From a virus, in IMG/VR virus record IMGVR_UViG_3300030007_000084, positions 1 to 25,478 of that record: 25,478 nucleotides of DNA; one strand, written 5' to 3'. A program made the position numbers and the translations under genes. Shown here piece after piece: positions 6,148-25,478 of this stretch; within the stretch, counting starts at the first letter, position 1, and every line of letters starts with the position of its first letter. The notes under the pieces were generated by a model that was given only the letters and a program-made list of their open reading frames with translations, had not been told where the DNA came from and ran no database searches.

Positions 6148-6714
6148 TCAGTGACGACCGTTCGGCCCGTAGTTCTCCCGGCGCTTAGCCCATCCACGGG
6201 CATACGCCTCGGGAGAGTTCGGCGTGGTCCGGTCCTCCTGGTTGGCCCGTTGCTCGGGCTTGGTAGCCCACCGGCAGTTTCCGGGCTCATAGTTCCCCTT
6301 GCCGTCCGGGTAGCGGTCAAGCGAGTAATCCAAGCTCGGACGTGGCCCCATGTCCCCAAGGAAGCTCTCGAAGTCGTGCCAGCGCTCGCAGACAATGATG
6401 CCCTTCCTGCCGTACTGGGGGAAAGAGGCATTGCGGCGGTCGTAACAGCGGCCGAGCATTGCGTGCCACGACGTGTAAGTGATCGTCCGGGACTGCCCGT
6501 GCCGGTAGCTGCTGGCCTGCTCACCCGTGTAGGACGCCAGCGCGGCTTTCGCTTCGTCCGTGTGGTGCTTGCCCTGCATCGGGTGATTCACGCGGCTGTT
6601 GTGCCCGGAGATGTAGAGACCCGACCGGCCGGGGCGTACCTCACCGGAGGTCATACCACCGCATCCGCAGGCGCATGGCCTGGGGTCCGTCTTCTTGTAT
6701 CCCATGTAATCCAT
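6148..6714 (-). CDS. HNH-type homing endonuclease
   Basis: Encoded antisense inside the late operon. The start is taken as the ATG at 6714 (188 residues); a second ATG lies at 6705 and a TTG extension reaches 6768, none with a good ribosome binding site. The N-terminus has a Cys cluster (CACGCGG) and YISGHNSR, a zinc-finger-like segment common in phage HNH enzymes. GKHHTDEAKAAL resembles a NUMOD3 DNA-binding motif. The C-terminal half has SWHAMLGRCYD, YGRKGIIVCERW and SLDRYPDGKGNYEPGNCRWA, the hallmark of the phage HNH family that nicks or cuts DNA. The antisense placement between tail genes fits a free-standing homing element. Confidence 0.85.
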   Translation of the reverse strand: MDYMGYKKTDPRPCACGCGGMTSGEVRPGRSGLYISGHNSRVNHPMQGKHHTDEAKAALASYTGEQASSYRHGQSRTITYTSWHAMLGRCYDRRNASFPQYGRKGIIVCERWHDFESFLGDMGPRPSLDYSLDRYPDGKGNYEPGNCRWATKPEQRANQEDRTTPNSPEAYARGWAKRRENYGPNGRH

Positions 6715-6758
6715 TGTATTGGGTTTGGCGGCACGCTGTCGGCCCACGTTGAAAGGAT

Positions 6759-7181
6759 GTGAGTCCAATTTCCGGGAAACTCTCAGGTCTGGGCGGCGCG
6801 GTGTCGGTTGCCGACGCCAGCAGTTCGGCGCAGCTCATCACCGACGACGTGACCAACTGGACCCTCTCGACCCCGCGCGCGGTGCAGGACGTGACCGGCG
6901 TCGGCAAGTCCGCTAACGAGCGGATCCTGCTGCTGGCCGACATCTCCGTGACCCTCAACGGCACGTTCGATGACGCCAGCAACATGAGCCACGCCGTGTT
7001 CTCCACCGTGACCTCCACTTCGGTCGCGCGGGCCGTGATCCTCACCCCCACCACCGACTCGGCGCACCTGCCGTTCAACTCGCTGTTCACCGACTACCAG
7101 CTGACCCGCGCGGCCACCGGGGAACTCACCTGGCAGGTGCCGGGCGTGCTGTCCGACGGCACCGTGCCGACGTGGGCCTGA
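6759..7181 (+). CDS. Tail-tube-like protein, short paralogue
   Basis: 140 residues from GTG 6759 (the overlapping ATG 6757 hits TGA at once). The purine run gaaagga ends only 1-2 bases before the start, so the spacing is poor. The sequence has SGKLSGLGGAV, VQDVTGVGKSANERILLLAD, VTLNGTFDDASNMSHAVF and LFTDYQLTRAATGELTWQVP with a DGTVPTWA end. This is the actinophage major tail (tube) protein pattern. It shares GK.SGLG and DVTG...SAN.R....D with the 250-residue protein at 4940. Being next to the chaperone genes, this one is the better candidate for the true tube subunit. Confidence 0.75.
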   Translation: MSPISGKLSGLGGAVSVADASSSAQLITDDVTNWTLSTPRAVQDVTGVGKSANERILLLADISVTLNGTFDDASNMSHAVFSTVTSTSVARAVILTPTTDSAHLPFNSLFTDYQLTRAATGELTWQVPGVLSDGTVPTWA

Positions 7182-11944: not shown

Positions 11945-13296
11945 GTGGCCAATACCGCTACCTTCGTCTGGACGAAGACGACGGCCGGCACCGTTACGTG
12001 GGTGTGCCCGCCGGGGGTCACGTCTGCCCTAGTTGAGTGCTGGGGCTCGGGTGGCGGCGGTGCGGGTTCATTCACGACTGCCGGCTCGGGCGGCGGCGGC
12101 GGCGAGTACGCGGCTGAGCCTGCTCTCTCGGTCACGGCGGGGACCGGCTACACGGTGGTGGTGGGCGCGGCGGGCTCATCCGGCACGACCGGCGGCGGCA
12201 ATGGCGGGGCGGGGAACAGTTCGACTTTCAATAGCACCGGGGTCGTGGCTCACGGCGGTGGCGGGAGTAGCGGCACAGGCGCGGCGGGCGGCACGGGAAG
12301 TTCGAATACCACGCATCACAATGGCGGTGCCGGGGGCACCGCCACGGGCGATGGCGGTGGCGGCGGCGGCGCGTCAGCTGGTCCGTCAGCGGTAGGAAAT
12401 GCCGGGGCCAGCAACTCAGGAAGTAGTAGTGCTGCTGGCGGCTCGGCGGTCACTGGCGGCGGCCCCGGCGGCACGGGCGGCGCCAGCAACGCCAATGGGC
12501 AGGCGCCCGCGTCAGGGCCTGGCGGCGGCGGCGGGGGGGCCGGCAGTGAGGTCGCAGGCGGCGCTGGGTTCGCCGGCCAGGTCCGCATCACGGTCACGAT
12601 GGCTTCGCCGGCGCTGTTCACGTCGGCTGACACGGCGTGGACGTTCGTGGCGCCAGCGGGGGTTACCACGGTCCTGGCCGAAGCGTGGGGCGGCGGCGGC
12701 GGCTCGGGTGGCGTGAGCACGGCAGCATCCAATGCCAGCGGATCGGGCGGTGGTGGCGAGTACGCAGCGGAACCTGCGCTGGCGGTCACGGCGGGCAGCA
12801 GCTACGCGCTGACGATCGGCGCTGCCGGGACTGCCGGGACGACTTCCGGGACCAGCGGCGGGGCTGGCGGCAACTCGGCCATTGCCGGCGATGCGGTCAC
12901 GGTCACGGGGCACGGCGGCGGCGGCGGCGCCGGGACCACCAGCACCACGCCCGGCGTGGGGGGCAGCGCCGGCACCGGATCAGCGAACACGACACATTAC
13001 AACGGCGGCGCGGGCCTTACGGGCAGCTTCGGCGGCTGCGGCGGTGCGGGCTCGGGCGGCTCGGCGGCGGCCGGTAACTCGGGCGCCACTGGCGCGGTGG
13101 GCGGCGCGGGCGGCACGGCGGTCACTGGCGGGGGTCCTGGCGGAAACGGAGGGGGCACTAGCAGCACTGCGGGCGCTGGCTCGGCACCCGTCTCCGGGCC
13201 TGGCGGTGGCGGTGGCGCCTCGGGCTCGGGCGGGTCAACAGGGCATCCCGAAGCGGGCGCGGCCGGGTTCGCCGGCCAGGTGCAGATCACGTTCGG
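11945..13296 (+). repeat. Tandem glycine-rich modules 1 and 2
   Basis: Two consecutive modules of about 215-230 residues. Each has an opening strand and TW.[CA]P.GVT, EYAAEPAL.VTAG, a TTH.NGGAG segment, SAVTGGGPGG or TAVTGGGPGG, SGPGGGGG and a closing GFAGQV.IT strand. The boundary is near 12600. Bases are dominated by GGC and GGT codons. Confidence 0.85.
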
Positions 13297-16200
13297 CGCT
13301 ACTAGCCAGCCGGACATGCCGATCATCCAGCCGGGTCCGACGTGGCTGGCGCTGTTCAAGCCGGGCCTGCCGAGGCCGAAGCCGTTCACGCCGGCGGAGA
13401 TAGCACCCGTCTACACCTCGGGTTCACTCGCCATGGCGCCGATGGCCGAGGGCGCCACCGCGAACCTCGGTGCGAACGACCTGCCCGTGATCGCTCCGGG
13501 GCCGGCGTGGGCGCATCATTTCAAGCCGGGCCAGCCGAAGCCACCGCCGTACATTCCCGAGCCGGGGCCGCCCGCTAACCCCAACCGGACATCCACCGGC
13601 AGCATGGCGATGGCGCCGATGGGCCTGTCCGGCACCGTGACCGGCGGCGACACCACCACCACCGGCAGCATGGCAATGGCACCGATGGCCGAGTCGGGCA
13701 CGGCGCTCGCCGGGAACATCGCCACCGGCTCGATGGCAATGGCGCCGATGGCCATGCAGGCCACCGACATCGAGACTTTCACCGCCACGGGCGGGCCGGC
13801 GCTGGCCCCGATGGCCATGTCCGGGCAGGTCTACCAGTCGCTGCCATTCCCGCTGGCACCGCTGAACCTGCTAGTGGAACTGCTCATCAACGGCGTGTGG
13901 ACCGATATCACGGCTGACGTTTACCAGCGGGACAACGTCGTCATCACCAGAGGCCGCCCGAACGAGGCCACCACGGGCACCACGGCGCCAAGCCAGATGA
14001 CGCTCACCCTGAACAACCGCACCGGGAATTACAGCAGCAGGAACCCGCTGGGGATCTACTACGGCTACCTCGGCCGGAACACGCAGATCCGGGTGTCCGC
14101 ACCGACCGACCCGCTGATGCAGTTCCTGTCTTACAGGTTCTGGGGCGTCGTCTCGGCGTGGCCGCCATCGTGGGATCCGACCGGCTCCGACGTGTATATC
14201 TCGATCACCGCGAACGGGGTGCTGCGGCGGCTCAGCCAGGCCGCGGTGCTCCGGTCGGCGCTATACCGCTACTACTCGACGCTGCCGGACTCCACGGTGC
14301 TGCTGGCCTACTGGCCGATGGAGGACGGCTCAACGTCCACGTCGCTGGCTTCGGGCATCGCCGGCGGGTTCCCGATGACGTGGACCGGGCAGCCGAGCCT
14401 GGCGAGCGATTCGGGGTTCCTGTCGTCGGGTCCGGTGCCATCCATCGCCAGCGCGATCTTCACCGGCCCGACGGGGGTGTCCGGCGCGCTGCCGGTCGCT
14501 AATCAGGCCGTGTTCTCGACGGCTGGCAGCGGCAACTGGGTGTGCCCGCCGGGGATCACCAGCGCTGTTGTCGAGTGCTGGGGCGGCGGGGGCGGCGGGT
14601 CGGGTTACAACGGCTCGACGGGCGGCGCCGGGGGCGGCGGGGGTGAGTACGCGAATGACTCCGTGGCGCTGACGCCGGGCACGTCCTACGCCTACACCGT
14701 GGGCGCGGGCGGCTCATCGACGGGCGGCAACTCGACGTTCACGGGCAACAGCGGCAAGGTGGTCACGGCGCACGGCGGCGGGTTTGACTCCACGGGGGCC
14801 ACAGGCGGCGCTGGGGGCACCGGCAGCACCAATGCCGTGGCGTTCGCCGGCGGCGCGGGTGCGGCTGGCTCAGGCGGTCCTGGGGGCGGCGGCGGGTCAT
14901 CGACCACGAACGAAAGCCAGTCGTTTAAGTCCGCGGGCTCGACGGGGTGGACGGCACCGTCGGACATCTCCAGCAACGTCACTTACTACATCTGGGGCGC
15001 GGGCGGCGGCGGCGGGGCGTCGAGCAGCACTAGTCACGGTGGCTATGGCGGCGGCGGCGGCGGGTTCGTCACGGGGTCGGACAGCATCTCCGGGGGCGCC
15101 AACAAGACCGTTGTCGTCGGCGCTGGCGGCAGCGGCGCCGTATCTGGCGGTGCTTCATCGACGGCCGGCGGGGACTCGACGTTCAACGGGCACGGCTCGG
15201 GCACGGGCGGCGGGAATGGCACGGCTGGCGCGTTCGGCTCGGGCGGCTCGGGCACCCGCAGCGGCGGCGCGGGCGGTGCATCGCCGTCGAACGTCAACGG
15301 CGGCGGCGGTGGCGGCGGGGCTGCCCTGGGTGGTGGCGGCGGGACTGGCCGGGACGGCTCAGCGGGCGGCGCTGGCGGGGCCGGGGGTTCGTCTGGCGGC
15401 CTGGATGACGGCGGCGGCGTGGGCGGGCAGGGCGGCACGTCGGGCAGCCAGGGCGGCGCTACGGGCGGCGCACCGGGCGGCGGCGGTGGTGGCGGGTACG
15501 AGACTGGTCACGGTGGCGGCGGGAACCGCGGGCAGGTCGAGTTGTTCTGGACTGAGACGACCGTCGGGCCGGCGCCGGACGCCGCGATCGGCGGCGGTGG
15601 CGGGTCCTCGGGCGGCTCGGCCAGCGCGGGGAACGCGGGCGCGACTGAACTCGGCGGCGCTGCCGTAACCGGCGGCGGGCCTGGCGGCGGGCTGCTGGTG
15701 GGTTCCACGTTCCAGCCTTCGCCGACCTCGGGGCCGGGCGGCGGCGGCGGCGGGTACGACTCGAACGGCGGGCCCGCTAACGGCGCGGCCGGGCTGGTGC
15801 GGATCACCTATGCGGCCGGCGGCGGCGGCATGGGCATCGCCGCTAACGTGACCCGGTTCCTGCTGAACGTGGACACCGCCGGGGACGCCGACGGCGCGGT
15901 CATGGTGCGGACTTACACCACGGGGCCGATCGCCTGGTACGACGTGATCTACAACACGGCCAGCTCGGGCAGCCTCACCTTGACCGGCTACGGGCCGTCC
16001 GGCGCTTCCCTGTTCACCACGGGGGAGGTTGCGTTCGGGATTGACGGCGAGTTCGTGCTGGTGTCGGCCGAGCTCCAGTCTGTCAGCGGCAATGTGACGT
16101 ACAACCTGGCCGCCATGATCTGCGGGGATCCCGAGCCGATCGCCAACAGCGGGCCGGCCACCTACCTCGGCGGCACCCTCGGCGACCCGTTCGACGCGGT

Positions 16201-17338
16201 GATAGACCCGAACGGGAACGTGGCCGCCAGCAGCATCGGCCACCTTGCCATCCTGGAAACGTACGACGCCATCACGGACCTGGCCGGCCCGGCGGGCGGG
16301 TACGCGGGCGAGAACGCCGCAGACAGGTTCACCCGGCTCTGCACCGAGGAAGGGATCAGCAGCAGCATCGTCGGCACGGACACCGACACGGAGATGATGG
16401 GACCGCAGACCGTCCAGCAGCTTGTGGCGCTGCTACAGGAATGCGAGGACGCCGACCGGGGCCTCATCTTCGAGGACCGCAACAGCCTCGGGCTGGTCTA
16501 CCGGACCCGCGCGAGTCTCTACAACCAGTCCCCGGCCGTGACCCTGAACTACATCTCGGCGGACCTCGCGGTGCCGATCCAGCCGACCGAGGACGACCAG
16601 CTAACCCGCAACGACGTGACCGCTACCCGGACGAACGGCAGCAGCTATGAGGCGGTGGTCACCAGCGGGCCTCTGTCGGTCGCGGACCCGACCGATACGC
16701 CGCCCGGGGTGGGCGTCTACACCTACAGCCAGACAGCGAACGTGCAGTCCGACGGGCAGCTGCCCAACCTGGCCAGCTGGATCGCTTACATCGGCACCGT
16801 GGACGAACTCCGGTATCCGGTGCTGTCCCTGGACCTGACCAGGGCTCAGTCCGGCGACTACTTCGACCAGATCGTCGCGGCAGACATCGGCGACTTCGTG
16901 ACCGTCCAGAACCCGCCGTTCTGGCTGCCGCCCGGCACCATCGACCAGCTGATTTTCGGCACCACGGAGACCCTCAACGCCTTCGTGTTCACGATCGGAG
17001 CGAACTGCGTGCCAGAGGACCCGTACGAGGTAGGGCAGGCCGGCATAGACAAGTGCGACACCGACGGCTCGACCATGCATCAGGGCATCGGCACGGCGGA
17101 CACCCAGTTCTACGTGGACACCCCGCCGCCGAACGCGCGGTGGGTGGACCTGGCCACGTACCCGGCGGAGTTCCCGATACCGATCATCGTCGCGGGCGAG
17201 GTCATGACCGTGACCGAGATTGACGGCACCAGCACGCCGCAGCTGTTCACCGTGATCCGGGCGGTCAACGGCATCCAGAAAACCCACAACGCCGGCGAGC
17301 CGGTCAACGTGTACCAGCCGGCCGTGGTCGCGCTGTAG
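11945..17338 (+). CDS. Giant glycine-rich minor tail (tail-tip/adhesin) protein
   Basis: 1797 residues from GTG 11945; an in-frame TAG at 11939 rules out earlier starts. Residues 1-215 and 220-450 are two glycine-rich modules, each opening with a beta strand and W.CPPGVTSALVECWG or WTFVAPAGVTTVLAEAWG. Residues about 458-630 are a Pro-rich repeat linker. The tail-tip core runs from about 640 (VELLINGVWTDITADV, VVITRGRPNEATTG, LTLNNRTGNYSSRNP) into a ConA/LamG-like domain with YWPMEDG near 790. That domain is interrupted at about 858-1292 by a further glycine-rich module with a fourth nested in it. The core then continues (FLLNVDTAGDADGAV, YAGENAADRFTRLC) to a C-terminal beta module. The core belongs to actinophage minor tail proteins; glycine-rich modules act as adhesin tips in other phages. 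Confidence 0.88.
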   Translation: MANTATFVWTKTTAGTVTWVCPPGVTSALVECWGSGGGGAGSFTTAGSGGGGGEYAAEPALSVTAGTGYTVVVGAAGSSGTTGGGNGGAGNSSTFNSTGVVAHGGGGSSGTGAAGGTGSSNTTHHNGGAGGTATGDGGGGGGASAGPSAVGNAGASNSGSSSAAGGSAVTGGGPGGTGGASNANGQAPASGPGGGGGGAGSEVAGGAGFAGQVRITVTMASPALFTSADTAWTFVAPAGVTTVLAEAWGGGGGSGGVSTAASNASGSGGGGEYAAEPALAVTAGSSYALTIGAAGTAGTTSGTSGGAGGNSAIAGDAVTVTGHGGGGGAGTTSTTPGVGGSAGTGSANTTHYNGGAGLTGSFGGCGGAGSGGSAAAGNSGATGAVGGAGGTAVTGGGPGGNGGGTSSTAGAGSAPVSGPGGGGGASGSGGSTGHPEAGAAGFAGQVQITFGATSQPDMPIIQPGPTWLALFKPGLPRPKPFTPAEIAPVYTSGSLAMAPMAEGATANLGANDLPVIAPGPAWAHHFKPGQPKPPPYIPEPGPPANPNRTSTGSMAMAPMGLSGTVTGGDTTTTGSMAMAPMAESGTALAGNIATGSMAMAPMAMQATDIETFTATGGPALAPMAMSGQVYQSLPFPLAPLNLLVELLINGVWTDITADVYQRDNVVITRGRPNEATTGTTAPSQMTLTLNNRTGNYSSRNPLGIYYGYLGRNTQIRVSAPTDPLMQFLSYRFWGVVSAWPPSWDPTGSDVYISITANGVLRRLSQAAVLRSALYRYYSTLPDSTVLLAYWPMEDGSTSTSLASGIAGGFPMTWTGQPSLASDSGFLSSGPVPSIASAIFTGPTGVSGALPVANQAVFSTAGSGNWVCPPGITSAVVECWGGGGGGSGYNGSTGGAGGGGGEYANDSVALTPGTSYAYTVGAGGSSTGGNSTFTGNSGKVVTAHGGGFDSTGATGGAGGTGSTNAVAFAGGAGAAGSGGPGGGGGSSTTNESQSFKSAGSTGWTAPSDISSNVTYYIWGAGGGGGASSSTSHGGYGGGGGGFVTGSDSISGGANKTVVVGAGGSGAVSGGASSTAGGDSTFNGHGSGTGGGNGTAGAFGSGGSGTRSGGAGGASPSNVNGGGGGGGAALGGGGGTGRDGSAGGAGGAGGSSGGLDDGGGVGGQGGTSGSQGGATGGAPGGGGGGGYETGHGGGGNRGQVELFWTETTVGPAPDAAIGGGGGSSGGSASAGNAGATELGGAAVTGGGPGGGLLVGSTFQPSPTSGPGGGGGGYDSNGGPANGAAGLVRITYAAGGGGMGIAANVTRFLLNVDTAGDADGAVMVRTYTTGPIAWYDVIYNTASSGSLTLTGYGPSGASLFTTGEVAFGIDGEFVLVSAELQSVSGNVTYNLAAMICGDPEPIANSGPATYLGGTLGDPFDAVIDPNGNVAASSIGHLAILETYDAITDLAGPAGGYAGENAADRFTRLCTEEGISSSIVGTDTDTEMMGPQTVQQLVALLQECEDADRGLIFEDRNSLGLVYRTRASLYNQSPAVTLNYISADLAVPIQPTEDDQLTRNDVTATRTNGSSYEAVVTSGPLSVADPTDTPPGVGVYTYSQTANVQSDGQLPNLASWIAYIGTVDELRYPVLSLDLTRAQSGDYFDQIVAADIGDFVTVQNPPFWLPPGTIDQLIFGTTETLNAFVFTIGANCVPEDPYEVGQAGIDKCDTDGSTMHQGIGTADTQFYVDTPPPNARWVDLATYPAEFPIPIIVAGEVMTVTEIDGTSTPQLFTVIRAVNGIQKTHNAGEPVNVYQPAVVAL
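13317..13835 (+). repeat. Proline-rich and AMAPM repeats in tail-tip linker
   Basis: Two copies of a Pro-rich unit (IIQPGPTWLALFKPGLPRPK and VIAPGPAWAHHFKPGQPKPP, near 13323 and 13486) are interspersed with five units of the form TGSMAMAPMAxSG (near 13420, 13600, 13664, 13724 and 13790). The linker lies between the tandem glycine-rich modules and the tail-tip core. Confidence 0.85.
14517..15819 (+). repeat. Glycine-rich module 3 with module 4 nested inside
   Basis: Module 3 opens with WVCPPGITSAVVECWGGGG and closes with AAVTGGGPGGG, SGPGGGGGGY and GAAGLVRITY, the same ends as module 1. In its middle, about 14901-15595 is another complete module that starts SFKSAGSTGWTAPSDIS and ends GNRGQVELFWTE. 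Confidence 0.8.
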
Positions 17339-18232: not shown

Positions 18233-18429
18233 GCAGGCGATTCGCGGGCGCCATCGTCATCTCGTCGGTGGTGCTGGCCTTCATCCTCAACGCGTTGTAT
18301 ACGACCTGGACTGTTCACGCTGAGTTCTCGAAGTCCTGCGCGCTGATCCAGGCGCAGGCCACCAGCACGTTCTACCCCCCGGAGTTCCGGCACGACTTCG
18401 CCGTACTCGCACGCCAGCGGGGGTGTTGA
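18220..18429 (+). CDS. Small single-TM phage protein, relative of upstream gene
   Basis: 69 residues from GTG 18220, overlapping the upstream gene by 13 bases. The membrane helix SSVVLAFILNALYTTWTVH closely resembles SFVLAIFLNGAFTVWSVQH of the protein before it (shared S.VLA..LN...T.W.V), and both end in GC after a helix with one Cys. The shared pattern suggests duplication and perhaps paired membrane subunits. Function unknown; a lysis accessory is one option by place. Confidence 0.6.
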   Translation: MPTLGRRFAGAIVISSVVLAFILNALYTTWTVHAEFSKSCALIQAQATSTFYPPEFRHDFAVLARQRGC

Positions 18430-20467: not shown

Positions 20468-21133
20468 TTAGACGGAAATTCTCGAGCCGGGCGCGGACCG
20501 CCGCTGGTAGTCCGCCCAGTCCTTCACCTTCATCTTGACCACCAGCCGGTCACCCTTCCGGGTGAACAGGTCCACGGCAGGCCGGCCGACGATGCCCTCA
20601 ATCCGCGCGCCGTCCCACCGGGACGTGAACTGCCCCTCCACGATGCCGCGCCATGCCTGCTCCAGCGTGAACGCCCCGATGGGCGGCACGACCTCCAGCC
20701 CGAGCTTCCCGGCCACGTCGGCCACATCGGCGTCCCGCAGCCACCAGCGGCCGACCATCACGTCAAACAGGATCAGCGCCTGGTCGGGGCGGTACATGCC
20801 GCCTGACTGGATCTTCGCACCGTAGCCTTCGCCGTAGACCGTCACGTCATCCGCATCCGGGAACGCGGCCTTCCAAGGGAGCGGATCCAGCACCGGGCCG
20901 AGATTGGCCACCAGCGTGGCAGGAACCTGCGCGTTGTCGGTCCGGCCGCCCACGGTGACCTCAGACCCGTTCCAGTGCAGCCTGATGTTGGTGCCGTCGA
21001 TCTTCTCGGTCCAGGTCCAGTCCTTGCCGGACAGGTAGCGGAACTCAGGCAGCGTCCACTCGCCGGGGATGATGACGTTGCGCTCGTCCCGCTTGAATGC
21101 GGTCTGGATCTTCGTGTACTCAGGGCCGAACAT
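20468..21133 (-). CDS. RNA-ligase-like nucleotidyltransferase
   Basis: 221 residues from ATG 21133 to TAA. Nucleotidyltransferase motifs of the DNA/RNA ligase superfamily are in order: motif I KIDG (Lys44 expected to carry AMP), arginine in GGRTDN (Arg64), motif III VYGEGYGAKIQSG (Glu102), IIIa-like LILFDV (120-125), motif IV EGIVGRP (179-185) and motif V KMKVKDW (Lys200, Lys202). Length and the Y.E.YG..IQ.G pattern point to the T4 Rnl2-like RNA ligase group. In phages these repair tRNA or other RNA broken by host defence. It stands alone between two clusters of GCCGTAAC sites, with no adjacent polynucleotide kinase seen. Confidence 0.88.
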   Translation of the reverse strand: MFGPEYTKIQTAFKRDERNVIIPGEWTLPEFRYLSGKDWTWTEKIDGTNIRLHWNGSEVTVGGRTDNAQVPATLVANLGPVLDPLPWKAAFPDADDVTVYGEGYGAKIQSGGMYRPDQALILFDVMVGRWWLRDADVADVAGKLGLEVVPPIGAFTLEQAWRGIVEGQFTSRWDGARIEGIVGRPAVDLFTRKGDRLVVKMKVKDWADYQRRSAPGSRISV

Positions 21134-21564: not shown

Positions 21565-22401
21565 TTAGGTGGTGGCCGCCACGGGGGTGATGGCCGTCAG
21601 GTAGTCGCGGATCGCGGTTGCCTTCGCCTGGCCGATGCCGAGGCCGTCACGGAGACGCTTGACGCCGGGTACATCACCCCGGGCCAGATCGTCACCGAAC
21701 ATCTCGACGGCTTCCCGGGCACCCTCGGGCGGCTCGTGGTGCCCGTTCGAGTGCCCGGCGGGCGGGGGGGTACCCGGGGTATACCCGGCGGCCGGGTATA
21801 GGGGACCCGGGGGTATACCCGGCGCCGGGTAGGGGGTACCCGGCGCTATACCCGCATCGGTATCGGCATGGCTATCGGCATGCCTATCGGCGGGCGCCGG
21901 CTCGGGGTATACCCGGGCCTCGGGCAGGGGGGACTCGGGGTATACCCGGACGGCGGGTACAGGGGACCCGGCAGGTATACCCGGGGCGCGCAGCAGGTGC
22001 ATGAGACTGGCGGCGAAGCCGAGCGTGACCACCGGCATGCAGGACACCGCCACCACGACCGGCCACGGCGCCGTGACGTGCCCGGATGCTGCCAGCAGGT
22101 GGTAGGACACCTGCCCGAGCATGCCGAGCACCAGCGCACCCAGGGCGCTACGGCGGGCGAACTTCGAGGCGCGGTCAGGTATACCCGGGCGCAGCCACGC
22201 GCCGAGTGCCGTGGCGCCGTATGCCTCCACGCCAATCGGCAGCGTGATCGCCGTGTTCAGCTGCAAACCGGGGGCTATACCCGGCAGCGGGTGCACTACC
22301 CCGAAGCCGCACATGGCGCCGAGTCCGACCCACCCGGACCAGACGGCCACGGCAGCCGGGGCGGCGACAAACCAGAGGGGCCAGCGGCGCATCGTGGTCA
22401 C
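21565..22401 (-). CDS. Four-TM protein with C-terminal HTH-like tail
   Basis: 278 residues from a GTG overlapping the preceding TGA. Four membrane helices are visible at about residues 7-31 (PLWFVAAPAAVAVWSGWVGL), 48-70, 84-105 and 112-137. A Pro-rich linker of about 85 residues follows, built from units such as APGIPAG, ARVYPEP and AAGYTPG. A C-terminal segment (RGDVPGVKRLRDGLGIGQAK) resembles the HTH tails of mobile-element membrane proteins (SpdB or DUF2637-like proteins in Streptomyces). A membrane protein that also binds DNA is plausible but inferred. The linker DNA carries most of the GGGTATACCC array. Confidence 0.6.
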   Translation of the reverse strand: MTTMRRWPLWFVAAPAAVAVWSGWVGLGAMCGFGVVHPLPGIAPGLQLNTAITLPIGVEAYGATALGAWLRPGIPDRASKFARRSALGALVLGMLGQVSYHLLAASGHVTAPWPVVVAVSCMPVVTLGFAASLMHLLRAPGIPAGSPVPAVRVYPESPLPEARVYPEPAPADRHADSHADTDAGIAPGTPYPAPGIPPGPLYPAAGYTPGTPPPAGHSNGHHEPPEGAREAVEMFGDDLARGDVPGVKRLRDGLGIGQAKATAIRDYLTAITPVAATT

Positions 22402-22464
22402 ATCCTCGGGGGTATACCCGGGGTATACCCGTCACCGGGTATAGGGGATCCGGCAGGTATACCC
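21777..22464. repeat. GGGTATACCC palindrome array
   Basis: Six perfect GGGTATACCC copies (21777, 21811, 21905, 21938, 22410, 22421), four one-mismatch copies (21973, 22177, 22273, 22455) and three near-copies (21794, 21844, 22437) occur within 690 bases. A longer composite of about 30 bases recurs three times, near 21792, 21953 and 22435. The array runs through the coding sequence of two adjacent genes. Confidence 0.9.
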
Positions 22465-22664
22465 GGGCGGTAGTCCAGGCCGAGTACGGCGGCGGTCGCG
22501 GCGGCGTAGTCGGCAACCGGGGCGCCGTACAGAATGTCCCACGGGTTATCGGTGGCGCGTGCCACTTCGAGCAGCACGGCGCGGGCCTCGGCGAGATCCA
22601 GCCGGTCTATGGGACCGAACACGGCTTGCCAGAACGTCGCCGGCGCCGTCGTCGCGGCGGTCAT
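22398..22664 (-). CDS. Small cytoplasmic phage protein
   Basis: 88 residues from ATG 22664 (MTAATTAPATFWQAVFGPID); the longer frame upstream to 22727 is antisense-like overlap with the preceding gene. The middle is helical (LAEARAVLLEVARATDNPWD). The C-terminal about 20 residues, PGIPAGSPIPGDGYTPGIPP, are written entirely by the GGGTATACCC array and look like an added tail. Its start overlaps the stop of the preceding gene by one base and its TGA overlaps the next GTG, so three genes are translationally coupled. No family is recognised. Confidence 0.6.
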   Translation of the reverse strand: MTAATTAPATFWQAVFGPIDRLDLAEARAVLLEVARATDNPWDILYGAPVADYAAATAAVLGLDYRPGIPAGSPIPGDGYTPGIPPRM

Positions 22665-24800: not shown

Positions 24801-25478
24801 CTAAACGATCTTTACTCTGTTCCGTCCCTGTTCCGTTTGAGCCTGAAAAACGGCCTCGATCGCGGCCCTGGTGGACTCGTCACGGTCGGGCCACAGGTGG
24901 CTGTAGGCGTCGAGCGTGGTTTTCGCGCTGGCGTGCCGCAGCCGGGCCTGGACGGTCTTCACGTCGGCGCCGCTGGCGATCAGCAGCGAAGCGAGGTAGT
25001 GCCGCAGATCGTGGAAGCGGAACGCCTCGGGCAGGCCAGCCTCGGCGCGGTGCGCCCGGATCGCGCGCGCGAGGGTCCACGGGCCAACCTGGCCGCCGTC
25101 CCCGGTGGTGAGCACCCATTGGCCGGGGAAGCGCTCGGCGTGGGATGACAGCGCCAGCATCATCGAGCCGGCGACGGGCAGCGCGGCGTGGCTGGCGTCA
25201 GTCTTGAGCTCTAGCGCGGGGTACTGCTGCCGGACGTAGATCGTGCGGCCGATGTAGTCGATATCCCCGGTGCGCAGACCGCACGCCTCGGCGATGCGAA
25301 GGCCGGCGAAGGCGCCGAGCAGGACAGCGGCGCGGATCCGCTCGGGCATCGCGTCGTGCAATGCCCACACCTGGGCGGTGGTCGCGAGGTAGGGACGCTG
25401 CGGGCCCTGCTTCGTGCTGGTGCGCCGGGAGCATGGCGAGCGGGCCAGCAGGCCGTCGTGGACGGCGTCGCCTAGCAC
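24801..25478 (-). CDS. int: Tyrosine integrase, catalytic domain (N-terminus outside window)
   Basis: 225 residues visible up to the window edge, ending at TAG 24801. The catalytic set is complete: Arg in FAGLRIAEACGL (visible residue 61), Lys in LELKTDASHAALP (92), His and Arg in FRFHDLRHYLAS (156, 159), His in RLRHASAKTTL (182) and the nucleophile Tyr in LDAYSHLW (192). This is the C-terminal catalytic domain of a phage-type tyrosine recombinase that joins attP to attB. The N-terminal arm-binding and core-binding domains must lie beyond 25478; the GTG at the edge is probably internal. A candidate core site and an excisionase-like gene lie in the same module. Confidence 0.93.
   Translation of the reverse strand: MLGDAVHDGLLARSPCSRRTSTKQGPQRPYLATTAQVWALHDAMPERIRAAVLLGAFAGLRIAEACGLRTGDIDYIGRTIYVRQQYPALELKTDASHAALPVAGSMMLALSSHAERFPGQWVLTTGDGGQVGPWTLARAIRAHRAEAGLPEAFRFHDLRHYLASLLIASGADVKTVQARLRHASAKTTLDAYSHLWPDRDESTRAAIEAVFQAQTEQGRNRVKIV

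Follow-up and report, generated by a model that had tools for sequence, protein, structure and literature searches.

An array of the palindrome GGGTATACCC inside an actinophage gene for a predicted membrane protein: candidate binding sites for the gene's own product

An actinophage gene for a predicted membrane protein with a C-terminal helix-turn-helix (HTH) carries an array of the palindrome GGGTATACCC, and among related genes the repeated motif changes with the class of the HTH and is concentrated beside the HTH-coding part. The array probably consists of binding sites for the product of the very gene that contains them, a membrane-anchored DNA-binding protein through which the element would fasten its DNA to the membrane. 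The array lies in virus record IMGVR_UViG_3300030007_000084, an incomplete actinophage record of 25,478 bases which was analysed at its full length and is here called the window. An earlier note on this DNA had put forward a binding array for a protein of the partition, transfer or repressor type, and this remains the best reading of the evidence.

Results

The window's tape-measure gene is related to those of actinophages, and the features discussed here are collected in Table 1. Away from the array we noted an HNH endonuclease gene on the opposite strand amid the tail genes (6148-6768) and a gene at 11945-17338 for a 1797-aa protein rich in glycine that is probably a tail or fibre component, and close to the array an RNA ligase gene (20468-21133).

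The earlier note had counted thirteen perfect or near copies of the palindrome spread over two adjacent genes, and our recount agrees: six are perfect, four carry one mismatch and three carry two. They lie in linker-coding DNA of the 278-aa gene, at two spots of its membrane-coding DNA, and in the 3'-terminal stretch of the 88-aa ORF that precedes it. In this last region the sites at 22410, 22421 and 22455 begin 9, 20 and 54 bp upstream of the 278-aa start codon, and there is also a half-site at 22437. The motif is not common across the window but confined to the array, as all ten copies with at most one mismatch fall within 21777-22464 (shuffled sequences held 0.44 on average and 3 at most) and the window beyond the array has only six two-mismatch copies and a single GTATAC, at 18297. 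The readings GIP, GYT and VYP given previously for the palindrome are correct, and within the 278-aa gene GGTATAC occupies all three frames (3, 2 and 1). Two further claims stood in part. The Ile codon ATA, described as very rare, is uncommon only (32 of 295 Ile codons across the window), while its link to the array holds for the codon pair GGT-ATA, which encodes seven of the eight Gly-Ile pairs in the two array genes and none of the 30 in the other window genes. A composite unit of about 30 bases in three copies is indeed repeated, in fact as five degenerate units, each 33-35 bp long, which agree exactly in a 10-bp core and differ in their spacers.

Table 1. Features of the window (positions in the 25,478-base record)
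Feature	Position	Strand	Remarks
Array of GGGTATACCC and near copies	21766-22464	.	
Perfect GGGTATACCC copies (6)	21777, 21811, 21905, 21938, 22410, 22421
One-mismatch GGGTATACCC copies (4)	21973, 22177, 22273, 22455
Two-mismatch GGGTATACCC copies (3)	21766, 21832, 21844
Array half-sites	21794 and 22437
278-aa gene: four membrane helices, disordered linker, C-terminal HTH	21565-22401	-	predicted
Four predicted membrane helices, residues 9-138	21988-22377	-	two single sites at conserved PGIA (22273) and PGIP (22177)
Disordered linker, residues 141-222	21736-21981	-	main array, 33-35 bp units
C-terminal HTH, residues 226-273, G-Q class: PGVKRLRDGLGIGQAKATAIRDYL	21583-21726	-	without GGGTATA half-sites
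88-aa ORF upstream of the 278-aa gene	22398-22664	-	overlaps start of the 278-aa gene
Tyrosine integrase	24801-25478	-	extends to record end (right end of the window)

The suggestion that the 278-aa gene encodes a transmembrane protein with an HTH-like tail is borne out by an AlphaFold2 model, in which four membrane helices are predicted at residues 9-31, 54-70, 76-105 and 113-138 (the first at low confidence), followed by a linker modelled at low confidence and then, confidently, by three helices at 228-271. The protein had no Pfam match up to E 0.1, PF10935 included, and a search of viral structures with the whole fold returned a single match with E < 0.001, to a 544-residue protein equal in length to the homologue of Thermobifida phage P1312. 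Searched on its own by tblastn, the 48-aa HTH found nothing in plasmids or phages, and its profile gave weak, unrelated matches only against PDB sequences. Foldseek with the HTH modelled alone likewise gave weak matches (E above 3). A structural second look with VIA-align placed FtsK gamma at ranks 1, 2 and 4 (Z 4.8-5.8), a profile comparison with actinobacterial FtsK gamma (hhalign) gave P 7.7e-4 at a probability of 25%, and Pfam FtsK gamma matched single family members weakly (E 0.03-0.06). Taken together, these results make a relation of the HTH to FtsK gamma suggestive.

To separate DNA from peptide, synonymous codons were shuffled inside the gene, with GGGTATA counts pooling both strands. 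The gene holds 13 such half-sites where 1.25 are expected; its linker-coding part holds 10 (0.91 expected), a number reached in 0 of 2000 shuffles, and its HTH-coding part holds none. The excess in the membrane-coding part is modest (2 against 0.27, reached in 103 of 2000 shuffles), and with the codon usage of the remaining window the observed number is reached in 4 of 5000 shuffles. These tests favour the view that selection acts on the DNA and not on the peptide. The two membrane-part sites sit at the PGI or PGVP positions of homologues, and since the homologues already encode these residues, substitution without insertion can create such copies.

The comparison as a whole covered about 80 related genes. 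The membrane domain is present in thirty viral contigs, phage P1312 and five actinobacterial plasmids. The GGGTATACCC array is absent from the viral homologue loci in the thirty contigs and from P1312, no further family member with GGGTATACCC was found, no array of the window motif was found in the other high-GC phages searched, and a 19-bp piece of the composite unit had no match in an exact search of viral contigs. Nor do the homologues keep the same linker with different codons: their linkers vary in length and sequence, and other motifs replace the window's. Motifs above synonymous shuffles were ACCGGACC/ACCGGTCC in P1312, CGCTGCAC in L089, TCAGGTCA in L080, CGGAGCA in L078, GGGAACC in L085 and CGGGTAC in L007, and among control ORFs of the same loci (n = 91) the top-motif excess was above 2 only in the neighbour that continues the L085 array. 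A tandem peptide repeat is present in relative L210.

Some homologous loci show further arrangements. In L089, three sites of the GTGGGTACCCAC type precede the gene region (958-1012) and another lies inside the family gene (1820), at the position matching the window's 22177 site. In P1312 (L075 1732-3363) the domain order is apparently reversed, with an HTH-like N-terminus, an array-coded linker and C-terminal membrane helices. The Nocardia plasmid relatives L124, L125 and L126 have an N-terminal HTH-like part and an adjoining gene for a ParA-type ATPase, and a GTGAAC(A) motif occurs in L124 and L125.

Paired GGGTATACCC copies in other viral and genome contigs proved unrelated: they belonged to repeats between genes in several genomes, to coding repeats of collagen-like type, and to HTH or ParB-like genes of other bacteria. 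Pairs in linker-coding DNA of unrelated HTH/ParB-like genes (L013 6218-8434, L055 3627-4199, L019 and L043) come from a phage, a Clostridia MAG and Paraburkholderia, the sites lying adjacent to the HTH as if this were a recurring arrangement. Pairs at near-fixed spacing and at several loci per genome, like dispersed repeats, occur in Bosea (L025, L032, L039, L045, L047 and L061), WOR-3 (L023, L028, L044, L050, L058, L060 and L062) and Stagnihabitans (L037, L063 and L070). Literature containing GGGTATACCC was unrelated to the window system, and text matches to CGGGTACG or GTACCCG were uninformative.

The window protein shares its C-terminal HTH with those of L007 and L008 (alignment A2), and the three genes have the related motifs GGGTATACCC, GGCGTACCC and GGCGTATCC. 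In the discovery set, genes with the window-type HTH held 38 CGGGTAC against 7.9 expected, and family genes without it held 8 against 5.1, six of these 8 coming from L135, an HTH gene missed by the pattern. New HTH genes were collected from actinobacterial genomes, the searches sampling one same family, and the window-type HTH was found in 70 of the 299 sampled genomes of one family. The motif goes with the residue that follows a conserved G at the start of the recognition helix (classes G-Q, G-T, G-H, G-N and G-Y), not with the membrane domain. For 37 new G-Q genes the motif had been predicted beforehand, and they contained 77 CGGGTAC against 16.2 expected. Counts by class were 121 CGGGTAC in G-Q (24.8 expected), 32 AGGTACA in G-T (2.4), 86 GGTCGCG in G-H (22.0), 23 ACCGGTC in G-N (5.1) and 19 GGTCGCG in G-Y (5.1), where L008 was misassigned by the pattern and the G-H and G-N motifs, and largely the G-T motif too, were recognised in the same sample that gave the counts. 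Permuting class labels over 62 genes outside the discovery set gave a statistic of 58.9 +/- 10.3 against 145 observed, a value reached in 0 of 20,000 permutations, and this test overstates independence because genes within a class are related. Inside one membrane-domain cluster (47 proteins) the motif still tracks the HTH class; for G-Q the association is seen again in another, unrelated membrane-domain cluster. Fewer than two CGGGTAC sites are present in 17 of 50 G-Q genes. The window gene is itself a G-Q member whose motif is a variant rather than the class motif, GGGTATACCC being two G-Q-class half-sites (GGGTA) placed head to head.

The position of the G-Q sites follows the HTH as well: their density per kb peaks at 8.62 in the final quarter ahead of the HTH-coding part, is still 2.96 over the first 200 nt past the stop codon and falls to roughly 0.2-0.4 farther away, with 0-0.23 over the 400 nt that precede the start. 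They use all frames and both strands, and 73 of the 121 CGGGTAC sites stand in one frame, read V-P, so that linker peptide and site are entangled. In G-Q and G-T genes the Val codon preceding Pro is GTA in 49% of cases, against 9% at other Val codons. Such a codon bias, together with the location of sites in the linker and past the stop, is hard to explain by peptide repeats alone.

Discussion

The covariation of motif and HTH suggests that the protein binds the array in its own gene. A four-helix membrane protein would carry, at the end of a long disordered linker, a small three-helix HTH resembling FtsK gamma, and the cognate site would be held in the linker-coding DNA, in the window together with the end of the preceding ORF. 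The window phage would use the palindromic GGGTATACCC for this instead of the usual G-Q site, CGGGTAC(G). By binding the array, membrane-located copies of the protein would tether the element's DNA. Such an anchor may serve to partition or position an element that is extrachromosomal or has been excised, or to hand it over to an FtsK/TraB-type translocase, and the sites that closely precede the start codon may add autoregulation. The array probably helps to position the element, to partition it or to have it handled in the manner of FtsK; the FtsK-like gene near many relatives and the ParA-type ATPases beside the plasmid relatives speak for this explanation. A broader claim strikes us as evenly balanced: that there is a widespread family of actinobacterial mobile-element membrane proteins with small FtsK-gamma-like HTH tails, in which the residue following the conserved G at the start of the recognition helix (Q, T, H or N) sets the site and an array of that site lies in the gene's own linker DNA. 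Each gene would then carry its own site array, so that reader and sites would move together and specificity could change jointly.

If this is true, protein-coding DNA doubles as a binding-site array for its own product, and the repetitive look of the linkers would be explained. Uncharacterised membrane proteins from the phages, plasmids and conjugative elements of actinobacteria would gain both DNA sites and a likely task. It would also define a recognition code, a natural one for the membrane tethering of mobile DNA, that is testable with short synthetic DNAs.

It should be considered that the repeats may instead be a clt/TRS-like loading array bound by the element's FtsK/TraB-type translocase, with the membrane protein accessory only, which we judge unlikely. 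In Streptomyces, clt loci consist of short repeats that are specific to the element and lie next to FtsK-like tra genes, and TraB recognises repeats of 8 bp via helix 3 of its C-terminal winged HTH (PMC3583192); an FtsK-like gene also lies near the family gene in 14 of 26 relatives and in at least 6 of 18 genomic loci. However, the motif tracks the membrane protein's own HTH, strong arrays occur without a nearby FtsK match in L085, L089 and L097, and some FtsK-adjacent relatives have weak arrays. Six FtsK-like queries found no such gene in the 25 kb of the incomplete window record, and a link of the array with a neighbouring FtsK gene was rejected since arrays and FtsK adjacency do not coincide.

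An operator or stoperator array, through which a phage repressor or the protein as its own repressor controls transcription, would account for the three window sites beginning 9-54 bp upstream of the start codon and for the three upstream sites of L089. We nevertheless think this quite improbable, as the class sites gather in the linker and after the stop and not upstream, and a dozen sites within a gene body would be unusual for an operator.

Neutral expansion by slippage or duplication in a tolerant Pro-rich linker, with no function at the DNA level, likewise stands little chance of being right. The degenerate 33-35 bp units, the placement of sites mainly in disordered linkers and the tandem peptide repeat of L210 are what such a process might leave behind, but the same motif is found in non-homologous genes of the same HTH class, sites run past stop codons, unit cores are identical while spacers vary, G-Q sites occur in all frames and on both strands, and the two membrane-part sites fall at conserved codons. 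The small mobile palindrome inserting without frame disruption that the earlier note also offered is scarcely credible and went unsupported, for although copies do lie in three frames and two genes and some unrelated genomes contain dispersed GGGTATACCC pairs, the window outside the array has no copy with at most one mismatch, homologues and other high-GC phages are without the array, and the membrane-part copies match residues already conserved in homologues, where substitution suffices.

A membrane-anchored protein reading sites in its own gene can be set beside several known systems. FtsK gamma reads KOPS, GGGNAGGG (PMC9764985). KOPS begins GGGNA and the G-Q site contains GGGTA, but the window protein has no motor and no wing is predicted after its helix 3, and its sites are clustered in one gene where KOPS are spread along the chromosome. 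The SpdB-like domain DUF2637 (PF10935) is matched by two genomic relatives with the same HTH and has a membrane part and C-terminal tail in common with the family, while PF10935 scans of the window protein, L007 and L008 gave no match. The lambda O protein also reads sites inside its own gene, the origin iterons, but it is a replication initiator and, unlike the window protein, lacks membrane helices.

SpdA2 of the Streptomyces plasmid pIJ101 binds the sps palindromes in its own coding region and affects segregational stability; sps, CGTCACGTGACG, is conserved across plasmids, and SpdA2 itself is small, with an N-terminal domain that resembles a zinc finger (PMC4170104). The window contains one match to CGTCACGTGACG with 2 mismatches, which is not significant (3.24 expected). 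As in SpdA2/sps, a palindrome is repeated inside the coding region of the window gene; unlike SpdA2, the window protein has membrane helices and about a dozen sites, and its motif varies with the HTH. With TraB/clt the window system has in common short element-specific repeats, a C-terminal HTH and a membrane-linked protein, but TraB is an FtsK-type ATPase, whereas the window protein is without a motor domain and its array lies inside its own gene. SpdA2/sps and TraB/clt of Streptomyces plasmids are the closest known systems. In view of these analogues and of the gene context, our proposal is a membrane-anchored protein that would bind the array within its own gene and position the element's DNA.
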